Shown one piece after another: positions 354 through 27,416 of a stretch of 64,000 bases of DNA. Position numbers and translations under genes: made by a program. How positions within the stretch are numbered: the first letter of the stretch is position 1; every line of letters begins with the position of its first letter. The DNA is taken from contig JARZZM010000018.1 in the NCBI GenBank assembly GCA_030130125.1, positions 1-64,000 on the forward strand, given 5' to 3'. This DNA is from Thermoproteota archaeon. Lineage in GTDB: Archaea > Korarchaeota > Korarchaeia > Korarchaeales > Korarchaeaceae. The notes beneath the pieces were generated by a model. That model was given only the letters and a program-made list of their open reading frames with translations, made no database searches and was not told the origin of the DNA.

Positions 354-379
354 TCCAGGTCCTTGGGAGGATGGTTATC

Positions 380-1606
380 TTGGCAGATAATTCGAGAAGG
401 GACGCTTTCCATCATAAGTATGTTGCCAAATTGGAGGTTATAGTTAACGGCGTGGTAGAGACCAGTGATGTGATAGGGGCTATTTTCGGGCAGTTAGAGG
501 GTCTACTAGGCCCTGAGTTAGAGCTCAAGGAACTACAAAGGACGGGGAAGATAGGAAGGATAAACATAAGGATGAGGAGAGAGGGAGATAGATCTAGAGG
601 GATTGTTGAGCTATATTCCGGGCTGGATAAGGTCAGAACTGCATTACTCGCCGCTGCAATGGAGACTGTCGATAAGGTCGGTCCTTATCCAGCGAAATTC
701 AAGTTGATTAGAATACTTGACGATAGAGAGGAGAGACGAAATGAGATAGCCAAGAGAGCCGCTGAAATATTAAAGAAGTGGTCCGTTGAGAGGGAGGACA
801 GCTTCAGGAAGCTCATAGAGTTCGTGCAGAGGGAAAGCGCGAAGTCCAACTTCATACTCTATGGGGATGAGGAGCTGCCAGCTGCCAGGGGCGTTGAGGA
901 CGCTGAGGAGATAATAGTCGTCGAAGGTAGGGCTGATGTCATGAATCTCCTGAAATACGGTTACGATAACGTGATAGCGATGGGCGGAGCTGTAGAGAGG
1001 GTTCCCAAGTCTCTAGTTAAGCTTATCTCGGAAAAGGAAGCTATAGCTTTCGTCGATGGGGATAGGGGCGGTGAAATGGTTCTCAGGACTTTGCTCGAGC
1101 AGACAGACATAGACTATGTGGCCAGAGCTCCGGAAGGTAAGGTGGTCGAGGAACTGACAGCTAAAGAGATTAGGAGGGCCCTTTCCTCAGCTGTCCCGGC
1201 CGATGAGATGAGGAAGGAGCTCGGAATATCTCCGCCTCAGGAGAGGGGGATCATAGCCATAAGATCCGCTGAATCCCATGTATCCCATCAGAGACATGAG
1301 AGAGGGGAGGATGAGAGACTACTCAGGATACCAGAGATGTTCAGAGATCAGTATGCGAGGATCAAGGGCACCGATAAGGTCCTATTACTGGACGACAACC
1401 TCTCACTGATAAGGGAGGTGTCGACGTCTGATCTCCTCAACGCTCTATCGGAGGTCGGCGGTGTCAGGTACATCGTCTACGACAGGATAGTTACTCAGAG
1501 GATAGTGGATAAGGCCTATGAGGTGGGTGTCAGGGCCATAGTTGGGGGAATAGCTAGGGATATCGTGAGGAAACCCTCTGGAATGGCGATATATACAGCA
1601 CAGTAG
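380..1606 (+). CDS. dnaG: Archaeal DnaG primase
   Basis: About 408 residues. It is the archaeal DnaG type: a conserved N-terminal region (SDVIGAIFGQLEGLLG near residues 30-45), then a TOPRIM domain with the acidic signature IIVVEGRADV near 173-182 and a DGDRGG motif near 216-221, and a conserved C-terminal segment (GGIARDIVRKPSGM). Archaeal DnaG makes short RNAs and is also found with the exosome. An ATG at 371 directly abuts GGGAGG (365-370), leaving no spacing, so the TTG at 380 fits the ribosome binding site better. Pelota follows after 9 bases, so the two are probably cotranscribed, possibly with the guide RNA upstream. Confidence 0.93.
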   Translation: MADNSRRDAFHHKYVAKLEVIVNGVVETSDVIGAIFGQLEGLLGPELELKELQRTGKIGRINIRMRREGDRSRGIVELYSGLDKVRTALLAAAMETVDKVGPYPAKFKLIRILDDREERRNEIAKRAAEILKKWSVEREDSFRKLIEFVQRESAKSNFILYGDEELPAARGVEDAEEIIVVEGRADVMNLLKYGYDNVIAMGGAVERVPKSLVKLISEKEAIAFVDGDRGGEMVLRTLLEQTDIDYVARAPEGKVVEELTAKEIRRALSSAVPADEMRKELGISPPQERGIIAIRSAESHVSHQRHERGEDERLLRIPEMFRDQYARIKGTDKVLLLDDNLSLIREVSTSDLLNALSEVGGVRYIVYDRIVTQRIVDKAYEVGVRAIVGGIARDIVRKPSGMAIYTAQ

Positions 1607-1615
1607 GTGGCATAG

Positions 1616-2689
1616 TTGAAGATCCTAGAGCAGGATCTCAAGAAGGGATTCATCAAACTGAGAGTTGAAAGCCTAGATGATCTCTACTGGCTCTCCTCGA
1701 TCCTAGAGCCAGGAGACCTTGTTACCATGAGGACTACTAGGAGAGTGAGGCAGGAGGGAATAAGGGCAGACAGCGGAGAAAGGGTCTCCATGACCATCAC
1801 CTTAGAGGTGGAGAAAGTCAAGATGGATCGGTACTCCGCTAGGCTGAGGATCACGGGCATAGTCAGGGTAGGTCCGGAGAAGTTCGGGATACAGGGTCAG
1901 CATCACACGTTAAACGTCACAGAGGGGTCCACATTGAAAGTCGTGAAGGAGAGGTGGAGTAGATCTCATCTGGACATATTGAGGAGAGCGGAGGAGTCCT
2001 CAAGTAAGGGAAACGTCATATTAGTGGCGATAGATGACGAAGGTGCCACCGTTGCAAAGGTGGACGCGTATAGGGCTGAGGAGATCGCCTACGTAAGGTC
2101 CAACCTCCCGTCGAAGAGAGGGGATCTAAAAAGGAGGGATGATGCAGAGAGGAGATACTACGCAGAGCTCTCATCCCTATTGGAGGAGATAGATTCCAGG
2201 ATGAAACCCCAAGCTATAGTGGTGGGAGGGCCTGGATACACCAAGGAGAAGTTCACATCTTACGTGAAGGAAAGGAATCCAGAGCTCGGGAAGAAGCTCC
2301 GAGAGGGCGGAGCCACTAGTTCCACTTTCTCTGGCATTCTAGAGATGATAAAGCGGGGCGATGTTGAGAAAGTTGTGAAGGAGTTTACCTTGGCGCGGGA
2401 CATGAGGGCGGTGGATGAGATATTTGAGCTACTTGGCAAGGGATCTAGGCTCGTTACTTACGGGCTGAAGGAGGTAATGAGGGCCGCCCAGTTTGGCGCA
2501 GCTGATGAGGTCTTGGTAGCTAGCTCTCTCCTTTTCGATCCCGTGACGCGTGACGACGTGCTCAGGATATTGGAGATGTGTGAGGACACAAGGGCTGAGT
2601 TTCACATAGTAGATGCGAAGAGCGAGCCCGGCGAGAAGTTGTTGTCCCTTGGTGGCATTGCTGCGAAACTTAGGTATCAGATAGAGTGA
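1616..2689 (+). CDS. pelA: Pelota/Dom34 mRNA surveillance factor
   Basis: 357 residues starting at a TTG preceded by GGTGGCA. The N-terminal Sm-like domain has the pelota hallmarks ([23 protein letters not shown]), followed by eRF1-like central and C-terminal domains ([31 protein letters not shown]). Pelota recognises stalled ribosomes and splits them with ABCE1. The central domain has no GGQ, as expected for pelota as opposed to the peptide release factor. It lies 9 bases behind dnaG on the same strand. Confidence 0.94.
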
Positions 2690-2693
2690 GCGG

Positions 2694-3407
2694 TCAGATT
2701 CTATCCTCAGCCAATCTCGATCTGAACCCTTTCTTCACCTTCTTGAGCTTTGATATTGCTTCTTCAAAACTCTCTCTCGGTAACAGGTGGTATTTAAGGT
2801 AGAGGCCCGTTGTACCAACGGATTTCCGCTTTGTGAGGATCCTCACTCTCTCCTCAACTACGTCCTTATCCACGCCCAGTACCCTGGCCACATATTCCTC
2901 GTATCCGAGCACAGGATACTCTAAGTGACCATTTTCCGTCGGGAATATCAATCTCAGTTCCTTGTTCACGCCTGGTACTCTCTTTCCTCTTCTAAGGCCC
3001 ATTAAATTGAGCCTCCCACCGAATTTGTAGAACTCTTCCTCCCTCTTCCTCAGTATCCCTATCGGTATAGAGACCGTGGTATTACCATTGAAGTGAATGT
3101 GGTACTTAGGAGTGCTTCTAGGGGTAGCTTGGACTATCTCCCTGTAGACAGGATCCCCTAGATGGTCTGCCAGGATCCCTTCTAGGAGAGAGGGGGGGAG
3201 CGAGTATCTAGGTACGACCACATCTACGTCGCTGCTCTCTCTAACATCTCCACGAGCCACGCTCCCGTAGACATAAGCAGGTGTTCCCCTGCTGTATAGC
3301 ACTTCCATCACCTCGATCGCTCTCTTCCTCTTCCTAGCTAATACCCTCCATCTCTCAGGATCGTAGATAACTTCTGCTTCTGGTTTTATATCGAGCAACG
3401 CGTGCAC
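2694..3407 (-). CDS. Nucleotidyltransferase-domain protein
   Basis: About 237 residues from the GTG at 3407. A GTG at 3431 would lie upstream of the start expected from the TATA-like element at 3436-3446 and would overlap the divergent gene. The signature YVYGSVARGDVRESSDVDVVV (hG-S-xRG-x-DxD) of the polymerase-beta/MNT nucleotidyltransferase superfamily sits near residues 46-66, with both catalytic aspartates present. The rest resembles uncharacterised archaeal nucleotidyltransferases. The substrate is unknown; it is longer than the usual MNT toxin-antitoxin proteins and has no HEPN partner beside it. It converges with pelota. Confidence 0.75.
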   Translation of the reverse strand: MHALLDIKPEAEVIYDPERWRVLARKRKRAIEVMEVLYSRGTPAYVYGSVARGDVRESSDVDVVVPRYSLPPSLLEGILADHLGDPVYREIVQATPRSTPKYHIHFNGNTTVSIPIGILRKREEEFYKFGGRLNLMGLRRGKRVPGVNKELRLIFPTENGHLEYPVLGYEEYVARVLGVDKDVVEERVRILTKRKSVGTTGLYLKYHLLPRESFEEAISKLKKVKKGFRSRLAEDRI

Positions 3408-3415
3408 CTTACCTG

Positions 3416-4090
3416 ATGAATGGATCCCCACTCACTAAAAATGCTCTCAGGTGCAGCAGGTGCGGATCTAGCGAAGTGCTAATTGTCAGGAGGTATTCAG
3501 GAGAGGTACTATGCCGTCGCTGCCTCAGAGATTCCCTACTCAGCAGGATTAAGCGGGCTATAAGCAGGTACAAGCTCCTGAGGAGGGACGACGATATCGT
3601 CTTCATCAGGTCAGGGCTCAAGCGAGATGATCTGCTGTGGGATCTCTTCTCGGAGATTGAATCTGGATTCCCTGTCTCGATCAGGGAGGAAAGATTACCG
3701 CCCTACACGGATTTGTGGGAGGCCGTCTTGGCCTTCTTAAAGGAGAGAGAAGAGGGTAAAGGCAAAGCTGTCCTCCCTCTGCTCTTGGATGACGCCGTGG
3801 GCCTCCTTCTAAGGTTCATTTTCACGGGATCTCCATCCCTCCTTGTGTTGAAAGGCAGGGTATTCCTCGCTTTGAGGGAGGTCTTCGGTCATGTTTCACC
3901 TTTTGTCGAGATCCCCGCGGAGGAATTGCTGGCTCTCGCGGAGTCGAGGGAAATAGGGCCCGACTTCGAGAACATCTACCTTAAGCTAGTGCGGAAGTTG
4001 GAGGAGAAGAATCCGGGGATGAGGTTCAATGTACTTAGATTATCCGAGAGGGAGGACTTTCTCAGATCGATCGGCATAGTTTTTAGATAG
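3416..4090 (+). CDS. Degenerate NcsA/TtuA-type PP-loop paralog (probable pseudoenzyme)
   Basis: 224 residues, ATG about 25 bases after a TATA-like TTTTATAT at 3383-3391, so leaderless. It follows the layout of the NcsA protein at 26,433-27,416: an N-terminal zinc ribbon (C13, C16, C33, C36), a strand leading to RSGLKRDD (65-72) where the active enzyme has HSGGKDSS, LLDDAVGLLLRFIFTGS where it has GHNLDDLVQTAVMNLSRG, and HVSPFVEIPAEELLALAE where it has RVRPLKMVYEREVATLVV. The P-loop glycine-glycine, the middle CxxC and the later cysteine are all missing, and about 60 residues of the central domain are absent. I infer a non-catalytic partner, comparable in logic to eukaryotic Ncs2/Ctu2. Function unproven. 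Confidence 0.6.
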   Translation: MNGSPLTKNALRCSRCGSSEVLIVRRYSGEVLCRRCLRDSLLSRIKRAISRYKLLRRDDDIVFIRSGLKRDDLLWDLFSEIESGFPVSIREERLPPYTDLWEAVLAFLKEREEGKGKAVLPLLLDDAVGLLLRFIFTGSPSLLVLKGRVFLALREVFGHVSPFVEIPAEELLALAESREIGPDFENIYLKLVRKLEEKNPGMRFNVLRLSEREDFLRSIGIVFR

Positions 4091-4128: not shown

Positions 4129-5568
4129 ATGTCGAAAAGAGAAGCGTTCGAACTAACTCCTAAGGGAGAGAACTTCTCCAGATGGTTCGATGAGGTCCTT
4201 TTCAAGGCGGAAATCTTGGATGAGAGATATCCAGTCAAGGGTATGTACGTATGGCTTCCTTTCGGCTATGAACTCATGGAGAACGTGATGAACTTCATGG
4301 AGAGGCTGATGAGACAGACTGGGCATAGGAGGGTATACTTCCCGGGCGTGGTGCCGGAGGGAGTTTTGAGCAGGGAGTTCAGATTCATCAAGGGCTTTGA
4401 GGATTCCATTTACTGGATCACCCGACTGGGTAAGCAGGAGATAAAGGAGAAGCTAGCGTTAAGGCCAACCAGTGAGGCCATTATGTACGAAGTCCTGAAC
4501 AGGTGGATAACGAGCTACAAGGACTTACCGCTCAGGATCTACCAGATCGTTCCGGTGTACAGGTACGAGACTAAGGCCACTAGGCCCATGCTGAGGGTCA
4601 GGGAGATCGTGTTCTTCAAAGAGGGGCATACATTCCACGCCACGTACGAGGATGCGGTGAAGCAGGTGGAGCTGGAGGTGTGGATCTACAAGAAGTTCTA
4701 TGACGAGCTGCTAGTCCCCTATGTGGTGGTGAAGACCGTACCTTGGGACACATTCCCCGGGGCCAAGTACAATTACGATCTGATAACCATAATGCCCGAC
4801 GGGAAGGCCTTGGAACTTGGTAGCGCCATAAACTTCGGTGACCTGTTCGCTAGGACCTACGGCTTGGAGTATATGGACGAGAACGGACAGAAGAGGAACG
4901 TCAATACCACCTCCTTCGGGATATCTGAGAGGTCTCTAGCGGCCCTGATAGCCATACATGGCGACGATAGGGGATTGAAACTCCCGCCCAAGCTTGCTCC
5001 AATCCAGATCGTCGTGGTACCCATACCATCGAAGGGGTATGAGGAGAAGGTGCTTGAATACGCCAAGGAGGTCTACAACGCCCTAGTCAATGATTACAGG
5101 GTCGAGCTGGATGATACCGATGAAAGACCTGGGTACAAGTTCTTCAAGTGGGAGATGAAGGGTGTACCCGTGAGAATTGAGGTAGGTAGGAAGGAGTATG
5201 AGGAGAGGGCCTTGACCCTCTTCAGGAGGGATACCATGGAGAGGTCTTTAGTCTCATTCGACGACCTTAGGAGCAGGATTGAATCCCTTTTCGGTGAAAT
5301 AGAGGAGGAGATGAGGAGGCAGGCCAAGGAATACTTTGAAAATAGGACGGTTCATGCTAAAACAGTAGGGGAGATCAGGGAAAACGTGGGCGAGAAGATT
5401 GTGTCGTTCCCTTGGTGCGGTCTAGAGGAGTGCGGGCACGAAGTCGAGGAAGAGATTGGATATGGTATATTGGGGTACGAGGAAAACGCACTGGAGGGAA
5501 AGGGGGAGAAGTGCGTTATCTGTGGAAGAGAGGCGAAACACAGGGCATGGATAGGAAGATCCTACTGA
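4129..5568 (+). CDS. proS: Prolyl-tRNA synthetase, archaeal/eukaryotic type
   Basis: 479 residues, the usual size of the archaeal class II enzyme. Class II motifs are visible: motif 2 around RYETKATRPMLRVREIVFFK (near residues 144-163) and ALRPTSEAIMYE (near 109-120). The anticodon-binding domain follows from about residue 285. The C-terminal zinc-binding domain typical of this class has cysteines in PWCGLEECG and EKCVICGREAKHRAW. The ATG at 4129 follows GCGAGGCGGG. It charges tRNA-Pro. Confidence 0.97.
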   Translation: MSKREAFELTPKGENFSRWFDEVLFKAEILDERYPVKGMYVWLPFGYELMENVMNFMERLMRQTGHRRVYFPGVVPEGVLSREFRFIKGFEDSIYWITRLGKQEIKEKLALRPTSEAIMYEVLNRWITSYKDLPLRIYQIVPVYRYETKATRPMLRVREIVFFKEGHTFHATYEDAVKQVELEVWIYKKFYDELLVPYVVVKTVPWDTFPGAKYNYDLITIMPDGKALELGSAINFGDLFARTYGLEYMDENGQKRNVNTTSFGISERSLAALIAIHGDDRGLKLPPKLAPIQIVVVPIPSKGYEEKVLEYAKEVYNALVNDYRVELDDTDERPGYKFFKWEMKGVPVRIEVGRKEYEERALTLFRRDTMERSLVSFDDLRSRIESLFGEIEEEMRRQAKEYFENRTVHAKTVGEIRENVGEKIVSFPWCGLEECGHEVEEEIGYGILGYEENALEGKGEKCVICGREAKHRAWIGRSY

Positions 5569-8403: not shown

Positions 8404-9519
8404 TTGAATAAGTTCAACTCCCTGATAGTGAGGTACTCCGAGATAGGCCTGAAATCCTCGCACGTCAGGAGAGAGATGGAGAGATTACTGATCAGGAATT
8501 TGGAGGAGACCTTCAGGGCGGAAGGAGTTCACTTCATCAAGATCGTCAAGAGAGCTAGCAGAATTGTGGTATACACATCAGATCCTCGGGTCAGGGAGGT
8601 CACCAAGTGGGTGTTCGGTGTGAAGTCCTACAGCCCCTCCATCGAGACCGAAGCCCAGATAGATGAGATAAAGAGAGTGGCCCTCTCGATAGCCACCCAG
8701 AAGGAAGGTAGTTTCGCTGTCAGGGTCCAGAGAGTCACCAAGGACTTTCCCCTAACGTCAATGGAGTTGGCCAAAGATGTCGGCGGGCTGATAAAGGGAA
8801 ATACGGGAAAGCCCGTCGATCTTAGTAATCCAGACCAAGAGATAATTATAGAGATAGTGGCGGGCAAGGCCTACATCACCGATGAGAGGATAGAGGGGTA
8901 CGGTGGGCTTCCCGTCGGCAGTCAGGGGAAAGTGATCGCCCTCATATCCAGCGGTATAGACAGCCCCGTGGCTGCTTGGCTTATGATGAGGAGAGGCGCC
9001 GCAGTCATACCTGTTCACTTCAGGAAGACACCAGAGGAGGAGAGAGGATTCAGAGAGATAGTCTCTGTGCTGAAGCGGTACTCCCATGGCGCTAAGTTCA
9101 AGCCTGTGGTGATAGAACATGGATCGGCCCTGAAGGAGTTCGTCGAGAGGGGCGCAAGGGAGTGGACATGCCTCCTCTGCAAAAGGAGGATGCTCGTCAT
9201 CGCCAATAAGATGGCCAAGGAGATGGGAGCCAGCGCCATAGTCACGGGCGACTCCCTCGGCCAAGTGGCAAGTCAGACCCTAGATAACTTGGAGGTGGAG
9301 AGCAGGTGCTTAGAAAAGCCAGTTCTCAGGCCCTTGATAGGGATGGATAAGGACGATATAGTCAAGCTAGCGAAGGAGGTCGGGACCTATGATGTATCTG
9401 TATCTTATGATATTTCGTGCCCATTCGTCCCCAAGAAGCCTAAGACTAAAGGTAAATGGAAGGATTTCGTAAATGTAGCGGAGAAGGTAGGTGCGGATGA
9501 GTTGCTGCACACATGTTAA
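8404..9519 (+). CDS. thiI: tRNA 4-thiouridine synthase ThiI
   Basis: 371 residues from a TTG just after GGTGAT. An N-terminal ferredoxin-like/THUMP region (about 1-165) binds tRNA, and a PP-loop adenylation domain carries SSGIDS (182-187). Cysteines in WTCLLC and in DISCPF are candidates for sulfur handling. There is no C-terminal rhodanese domain, as in most archaeal ThiI, so another sulfur source is required. The enzyme makes s4U8 in tRNA and may serve thiamine synthesis. The TAA is two bases from the 3' end of the convergent 5S rRNA. Confidence 0.92.
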   Translation: MNKFNSLIVRYSEIGLKSSHVRREMERLLIRNLEETFRAEGVHFIKIVKRASRIVVYTSDPRVREVTKWVFGVKSYSPSIETEAQIDEIKRVALSIATQKEGSFAVRVQRVTKDFPLTSMELAKDVGGLIKGNTGKPVDLSNPDQEIIIEIVAGKAYITDERIEGYGGLPVGSQGKVIALISSGIDSPVAAWLMMRRGAAVIPVHFRKTPEEERGFREIVSVLKRYSHGAKFKPVVIEHGSALKEFVERGAREWTCLLCKRRMLVIANKMAKEMGASAIVTGDSLGQVASQTLDNLEVESRCLEKPVLRPLIGMDKDDIVKLAKEVGTYDVSVSYDISCPFVPKKPKTKGKWKDFVNVAEKVGADELLHTC

Positions 9520-26205: not shown

Positions 26206-26436
26206 ATGAAGGAGACCATTAAAGTGTTCCTGGCCGGTAGAGAAGTGGAACTGCCTTGGAATACTATGGTGGATGATCTTTACGGGATACTTGGTGCGAG
26301 CAAGTGGAGCACCCTCCTCTTGGTGAATGGAGAGCCTAGAGCTGATGATTCCTACTTGGAGGAAGGAGATGTGATCACGTGGTTAAGGATAACTTACCAT
26401 GAGAGCCCTAGGGAGAGCTCGGGGGAGGATAGTTGA
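26206..26436 (+). CDS. MoaD/ThiS-like beta-grasp protein lacking terminal Gly-Gly
   Basis: 76 residues. The beta-grasp sulfur-carrier pattern is clear: VFLAGREVELP, LLLVNGEPRADDSYLEEGDVITWLR. Sulfur carriers and SAMPs end in Gly-Gly at the tail. Here the last strand is followed by ITYHESPRESSGEDS, with no Gly-Gly. It overlaps the ncsA gene by four bases, so the two products are probably made together and may interact. Without the diglycine it cannot carry a thiocarboxylate in the normal way; a binding or regulatory role is inferred. Confidence 0.75.
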   Translation: MKETIKVFLAGREVELPWNTMVDDLYGILGASKWSTLLLVNGEPRADDSYLEEGDVITWLRITYHESPRESSGEDS

Positions 26437-27416
26437 GGAAGTGCGACCTTTGCGGCTTCAATGAGGCCGTGTACACGGATCACAGTAAGGGGGTATCGGT
26501 ATGCGCCGACTGTCTTATGAAGTCCGTGAGGAGGAGAGCTTGGCAGGTCTTGAAGGGAGAGCTAATAGCAGGGGACAAGGTGATGATAGCTCACTCGGGG
26601 GGAAAGGACAGTTCCCTTGCTCTTCTCCTCACAAAGGAGTTCGCTGACACTCACCCGGACATGAAGCTTAGCCTACTCTCTGTTACTGTAGATGAAGGGA
26701 CCTTCTACAGGAAGGCCTCCGTGAAGCTCGCTGAGAGACTGGCTAACGAGCTCGGGGTGAGACATAGGACGTATACAATGGAGGAGATTCATGGTCTATC
26801 CATAGAAGAGCTGGATTTCAGACTTCCTGCCAACTGGAAGAGAAGTCCATGTACCTACTGTGGAGTCCTCAGGAGACAAGCTTTGAACGCGATTGCTAGG
26901 GAGATAGGGGCGACTGTCGTTGTGACAGGGCATAACCTCGATGATCTGGTCCAGACGGCAGTGATGAACCTGTCGAGGGGGGACATCAACGCCCTAGTGA
27001 AGACCCTCAGGCATGAGAGGAAGATGGAGGAGGGGCTTGTACCTAGAGTCAGACCGCTGAAGATGGTCTATGAGAGGGAAGTCGCTACTCTAGTTGTGGC
27101 CAAAAAGATCCCCTCCCATCTAGGGAAGTGTCCCTTCACCCAAGGGATGAGGATAGGTGTGAGGAGGGAGATAGATTACTTGGAGGACCACATCCCCGGT
27201 ACTAAGGTTAAGGCACTTCATACCTTCTCTCTGATCTCCCACGGGTTATCGCCAGATGTACAGCTCAGGAGATGCCGCGTGTGCGGTGAACCAACCACGA
27301 CGGAGATGTGTAAGGCCTGCCAGTTCAAGAGAGAGTTGTCTACTTTCCTTCACCGGGACCTAGTTCGGCCGCTCAATCTGGAAAAGGTAAGAAAGGATAG
27401 AGATCTGTGGGACTAA
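26433..27416 (+). CDS. ncsA: NcsA/TtuA-type tRNA 2-thiolation enzyme
   Basis: 327 residues from a TTG after GGAGGAT. Architecture: an N-terminal zinc finger (C4, C7, C24, C27), the PP-loop HSGGKDS (54-60), the CxxC at C140/C143 and a later cysteine near 233 (GKCPF), which together would hold a [4Fe-4S] cluster, GHNLDDLVQT, and a C-terminal zinc finger (CRVCG, CKAC). The family adenylates and thiolates uridine in tRNA (position 34 in Ctu1/NcsA, position 54 in TtuA). It is the intact counterpart of the degenerate paralog at 3,416-4,090. Confidence 0.93.
   Translation: MRKCDLCGFNEAVYTDHSKGVSVCADCLMKSVRRRAWQVLKGELIAGDKVMIAHSGGKDSSLALLLTKEFADTHPDMKLSLLSVTVDEGTFYRKASVKLAERLANELGVRHRTYTMEEIHGLSIEELDFRLPANWKRSPCTYCGVLRRQALNAIAREIGATVVVTGHNLDDLVQTAVMNLSRGDINALVKTLRHERKMEEGLVPRVRPLKMVYEREVATLVVAKKIPSHLGKCPFTQGMRIGVRREIDYLEDHIPGTKVKALHTFSLISHGLSPDVQLRRCRVCGEPTTTEMCKACQFKRELSTFLHRDLVRPLNLEKVRKDRDLWD

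Follow-up and report, generated by a model that had tools for sequence, protein, structure and literature searches.

The cytosolic U34-tRNA thiolase of eukaryotes pairs an active subunit, Ctu1, with an inactive paralog, Ctu2/Ncs2 (PF10288), and this two-subunit arrangement is seen as eukaryotic, while U34 thiolation in archaea is described as the work of NcsA alone (PMC10067955; PMC5372739). Human Ctu2 has no cluster cysteines and keeps its zinc sites, and its model superposes on the second subunit of NcsA; Ctu2 may orient tRNA in the Ctu1/Ctu2 complex (PMC10067955), although the role of Ncs2 has also been described as unclear (PMC5372739). In the open-access literature we found no Ncs2-like or inactivated NcsA paralogs from archaea. 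Here we describe an archaeal NcsA paralog that may be an inactive thiolase helper subunit of a kind otherwise known only in eukaryotes.

The window is a 64,000-nucleotide stretch of contig JARZZM010000018.1 from a member of the Korarchaeota, which we take to be a hot-spring or vent archaeon. It contains a canonical, active NcsA at 26433..27416 on the + strand (327 aa, TTG start, NcsA model E=1.1e-46), in which the PP-loop and all three Fe-S cysteines are intact, and a shorter relative at 3416..4090, also on the + strand (224 aa, ATG start). Both reading frames are present as the original prediction had it. A canonical TtuA, with SGGKDS and CxxC in place, lies elsewhere in the genome (C14:29836-30702). 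As the genome thus has an active NcsA and an active TtuA, the protein encoded at 3416-4090 is a third paralog.

The sequence of this third paralog lacks what an NcsA enzyme needs at its active site. As predicted, RSGLKRDD at residues 65-72 (3608..3631, +) stands opposite HSGGKDSS at residues 54-61 of NcsA, and the CxxC (C140/C143) and third cysteine (C233) of NcsA have no equivalent. A column count over 13 orthologs from the phylum found the PP-loop Asp and the Ser that follows it in none, so the SGGKDS ATP motif is missing throughout; most have a deletion in place of the [4Fe-4S] CxxC loop, and only one has an aligned third cysteine. The original prediction did not mention the additional TtuA, nor what has become of the two zinc ribbons. 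The C-terminal zinc ribbon is gone from all 13 orthologs, and the N-terminal CxxC...CxxC ribbon with its YSGE motif (residues 12-37; 3449..3526, +) is kept, with all four cysteines in 13/13 and a match to Pfam TtuA_LIM_N in 17 of 18 family members. Equivalents of P208, E216 and E251 are likewise found in every ortholog. The ratio dN/dS is 0.10-0.25 (NG86, five congeners), about twice the 0.04-0.15 of NcsA. Taken together, the lost motifs, the kept residues and the dN/dS values indicate, at the level of sequence, a catalytically dead protein under purifying selection.

That other residues still give the protein some catalysis or nucleotide binding seems quite improbable to us. Such activity could draw on a predicted fold that is intact, on several conserved glutamates (E82, E170, E196) and on LDD at residues 124-126 (3785..3793, +), a remnant of the GHNLDD motif in which L is found in 12 and each D in 11 of the 13 orthologs while G, H and Q are gone. 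However, no conserved residues are left at the PP-loop site, and E170 and E196 are inherited from, and common to, NcsA.

That the protein belongs to the TtuA/NcsA fold family, outside its enzymes, is clear from both structure prediction and profile comparison. The AlphaFold2 (AF2) model (pLDDT 88.1, pTM 0.86) has the N-terminal zinc ribbon and PP-loop alpha/beta core of the family, and a Foldseek search of the PDB returned TtuA/NcsA chains at all of ranks 1-17 (E 1.5e-9 to 8e-8), with TilS next. The idea that the PP-loop fold might prove to be missing therefore fails. By BLASTP, the similarity to the NcsA of the window is weak (E=0.001, first 75 residues), so we drew the evidence from families. 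In hhalign, the family profile aligned with NcsA of the same phylum over 208 columns (probability 99.6, E=1.6e-23), with other archaeal NcsA at E 9.8e-28 and with TtuA at 5.6e-21, NcsA being the nearer. After removal of the zinc finger and first helix, the E values were 1.1e-10 for the phylum's NcsA and 7.4e-12 for other archaeal NcsA, compared with 0.2-0.6 for finger-free control profiles that had been column-shuffled or reversed. Homology of the zinc ribbon only was discarded on these values. An unrelated zinc-finger family was rejected too: matches to uS14, RING and TFIIB were confined to the finger and did not figure among the leading fold matches. The profile-profile comparison that had been suggested as a check thus places the protein in the NcsA/TtuA family.

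The best family-level match is NcsA, the archaeal U34-tRNA thiolase (NF047749; PDB 6scy), with which the protein shares the fold and the N-terminal CxxC-CxxC ribbon; it differs in lacking the PP-loop, the [4Fe-4S] cysteines and the C-terminal zinc ribbon, and is about 100 residues shorter. TtuA, the m5U54-tRNA 2-sulfurtransferase (PDB 5mko, 3vrh, 5gha), has the same fold and gave the top Foldseek matches, but all of its catalytic motifs are gone from the protein. An inactive partner of TtuA in position-54 thiolation, rather than of NcsA, is accordingly worth weighing: TtuA is closely related, occurs in the phylum and ranks first when the profile is compared with PDB sequences (8.8e-19, against 2.5e-17 for NcsA, both across almost the entire profile length). 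We nevertheless regard it as improbable, because the family profiles lie nearer to NcsA than to TtuA and the finger is CxxC-CxxC, like that of most NcsA, rather than CxxC-CxxH; the genomes without a TtuA match described below argue the same way.

The resemblance to Ctu2 lies in the pairing of an active NcsA with an inactive paralog of NcsA-like fold and no active site, and both proteins lack the Fe-S cysteines and keep the N-terminal zinc site (Ctu2 from PMC10067955). Unlike Ctu2, the Korarchaeota proteins have lost the C-terminal zinc ribbon, which counts against a partnership with NcsA. Pfam CTU2 (PF10288) did not match the protein or its orthologs, and in 297 archaeal genomes it returned nothing above its cut-off; the best sub-threshold matches were frames of canonical NcsA length, and a search for archaeal Ctu2 by this route was set aside. 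Of the original suggestion of an Ncs2/Ctu2-like pseudoenzyme, what holds is a conserved, selected NcsA paralog of PP-loop fold that lacks the catalytic residues and shares its genome with an active NcsA; a pairing with NcsA and membership of the Ncs2/Ctu2 family stay conjectural. The dead paralog perhaps works like Ctu2, by analogy, and with Pfam CTU2 unmatched we do not class it as Ctu2.

A search of 61 relatives recovered a full-length ortholog in nearly every genome of the family to which the window belongs (f1). A family profile (A1) confirmed another in a second family of the same class (G025) and retrieved new ones from outside the class (G026 and, as a partial copy, G028); in G027 the ortholog is a fragment at a contig end. 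All fully read orthologs lack the PP-loop and have invariant zinc cysteines. There was no match in G005, G021 or G024, whose genomes are 63-71% complete, among the 29 genomes of the phylum in our sample. By this distribution the P-loop-less paralog appears as an ancient gene common to the whole phylum. A decaying pseudogene or assembly artefact, which fast evolution and a length shorter than that of NcsA might suggest, is hardly credible: the frame is open in more than 20 genomes, dN/dS is far under 1, the zinc cysteines do not vary and the locus is the same across at least two classes. We consider this explanation ruled out by conservation.

Upstream of the gene lie genes for a DnaG-type primase (371..1606, +) and Pelota (1616..2689, +), then a divergent nucleotidyltransferase gene (2694..3431, -; Pfam NTP_transf_2); downstream, 38 bp past the stop codon, is the gene for prolyl-tRNA synthetase (4129..5568, +). 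The dnaG-pelota pair adjoins the ortholog in two or more classes of the phylum, mostly with the divergent nucleotidyltransferase in between; the latter adjoins the orthologs read in families f1 and f3, and the order with prolyl-tRNA synthetase is maintained in other genera of f1. These surroundings offer no ncsA operon, which counts against a partnership with NcsA, and they fit a repurposed RNA-binding protein of NcsA fold with a role of its own, for example in tRNA or ribosome handling with Pelota or prolyl-tRNA synthetase, and not as a thiolase subunit. The shrunken core and the missing C-terminal zinc ribbon are in keeping with such a role, as is the position of the Thermoproteia copies beside a thermosome gene instead. 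We regard this explanation as possible though rather doubtful: the housekeeping neighbours differ between Korarchaeota and Thermoproteia, so that they indicate no shared partner, and in Thermoproteia the presence of the dead paralog follows the NcsA clade (below).

The nucleotidyltransferase offers a different clue to the locus. The same family directly adjoins canonical NcsA in four genomes of family f42 (44% identity, E=2e-60, between the window's copy and that of L111). We take f42 to be Asgard archaea from its numbers of Ras-type GTPases, 24-28 in each of the five genomes searched, three of the four with the nucleotidyltransferase-NcsA pair among them. Because this neighbour lies beside Asgard NcsA, and some of the best canonical matches of the dead-paralog family are f42 NcsAs, we suggest that the dead gene may sit in an old NcsA locus. 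The occurrence of the uncharacterised nucleotidyltransferase beside canonical NcsA in these Asgard-like genomes (L111:2441-3139, L113:147-875) also hints that it has a link to tRNA thiolation. Separately, a ThiI-like PP-loop protein (SSGIDSP) is encoded 4.3 kb downstream of the dead gene, at 8404-9519 (+), and three genes of tRNA-thiolation type lie inside 27 kb of the window.

The A1 profile also retrieved P-loop-less paralogs from Thermoproteia (G113, G338, G169), and a class-wide search found the paralog in many families, all copies read being without the PP-loop (alignment A6). Its bearers include family f76, which we judge by its Sso7d genes to be Sulfolobaceae and in which the copies are very divergent. 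In Sulfolobus acidocaldarius, both U34 and U54 of tRNA are thiolated (PMC7668247). The AF2 model of a Thermoproteia paralog (pLDDT 91.8) again gave TtuA/NcsA as the first fold matches. The Thermoproteia copies resemble the protein encoded at 3416-4090 in fold, in the loss of the PP-loop and Fe-S motifs and in tree grouping; they differ from it in that the C-terminal zinc ribbon is mostly there (16 of 17 counterparts, against 0 of 13 in Korarchaeota) and in that, where read, they adjoin a thermosome gene. When a combined profile was run against a sample of 394 archaeal genomes, the top matches (E <1e-45) came only from Korarchaeota and Thermoproteia, though weaker, unread matches may hide others.

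A survey of 38 Thermoproteia genomes related the dead paralog to the type of NcsA. Most Thermoproteia NcsA carry I(I/V)EGIxGYN (L193, L200-L207, L258, L264-L266), and those of other archaea mostly (V/I)DEGIxGYR; it is the former variant that co-occurs with the dead paralog. The GYN-type NcsAs form a well-supported clade, with 23 sequences placed, and all 23 genomes that have one also have the dead paralog, its P-loop loss being read in 22 and the remaining copy (G612) recognised by similarity only. Conversely, the paralog is absent from all eight f28/f62 genomes, whose NcsAs carry a CxxC-CxxH finger and form a clade of their own (L187, L255, L257, L259-L263); at least six of these genomes have TtuA. 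One f138 genome (G397) combines a third type of NcsA with the dead paralog, and in the f140 genomes among the 38 no dead paralog was found. In three genomes (G220, G501, G588), NcsA and the dead paralog are both retained and no TtuA match was found, which argues against a partner of TtuA. A single evolutionary event, counted many times, may account for the co-variation with the type of NcsA.

On the strength of this co-variation, the persistence of the dead paralog without a TtuA match, the closeness of its profiles to NcsA, the nucleotidyltransferase neighbour in common with Asgard NcsA and the published work on Ctu2 and NcsA, we prefer to read the protein encoded at 3416-4090 as a non-catalytic partner of NcsA that works like eukaryotic Ctu2/Ncs2, a reading by analogy that we hold with modest confidence. 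The dead paralog would, always or at times, fill one position of the NcsA dimer; it would neither adenylate nor sulfurate U34 and would instead assist the active NcsA subunit by helping to bind or orient tRNA or the sulfur-carrier protein. The NcsA of M. maripaludis is a homodimer and functions alone (PMC10067955), and the latter property counts against a partner. The Thermoproteia dead paralog most likely has the same role, and probably the same origin.

In a tree from all shared columns, the dead paralogs stand apart from the active enzymes, and with 22 catalytic-type columns removed they form one side of a branch with 99/99 support. Separate origins from each lineage's own NcsA were rejected with all columns (p-AU 0.0014 and 0.0029), and were not clearly rejected without the catalytic ones (p 0.06 and 0.08); recent decay of the Korarchaeota's own NcsA gave p-AU 0.0014 and p 0.06, respectively. 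The dead-paralog tree has long branches. Given these and the weaker rejection, the sequences favour, and do not prove, one shared origin for the dead paralogs of Korarchaeota and Thermoproteia. It is a good deal more speculative, and in our estimate unlikely, that both groups and eukaryotic Ctu2 derive from one ancient duplication of NcsA, with a two-subunit thiolase in these archaea; if they did, the split of the U34 thiolase into active and inactive subunits would predate eukaryotes. With a dead paralog in two major archaeal groups, one including the Sulfolobaceae, there is a simpler system in which to ask what the inactive subunit is for, and whether the subunit split arose once or repeatedly.

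We also noted some irregular members of the wider family. In two Thermoproteia loci (L119:6669-7418; L120:6600-7154, -), the dead paralog overlaps a zinc-ribbon gene tail-to-tail and is divergent from the thermosome gene; no Pfam family matches the L120 copy. In one single-contig genome (L287, G418:C1:589097-589901), the dead-paralog gene is broken into frames of 126, 169 and 42 aa, possibly by recent loss or sequencing error. Elsewhere in archaea, shrunken TtuA-family genes occur in G361, G107 and G192 (L117:5356-6066, L121:2956-3573 and L122:2985-3731); one of the three has SGCRDS and no PCxxC, another has SGGKKS, and each may have decayed independently.
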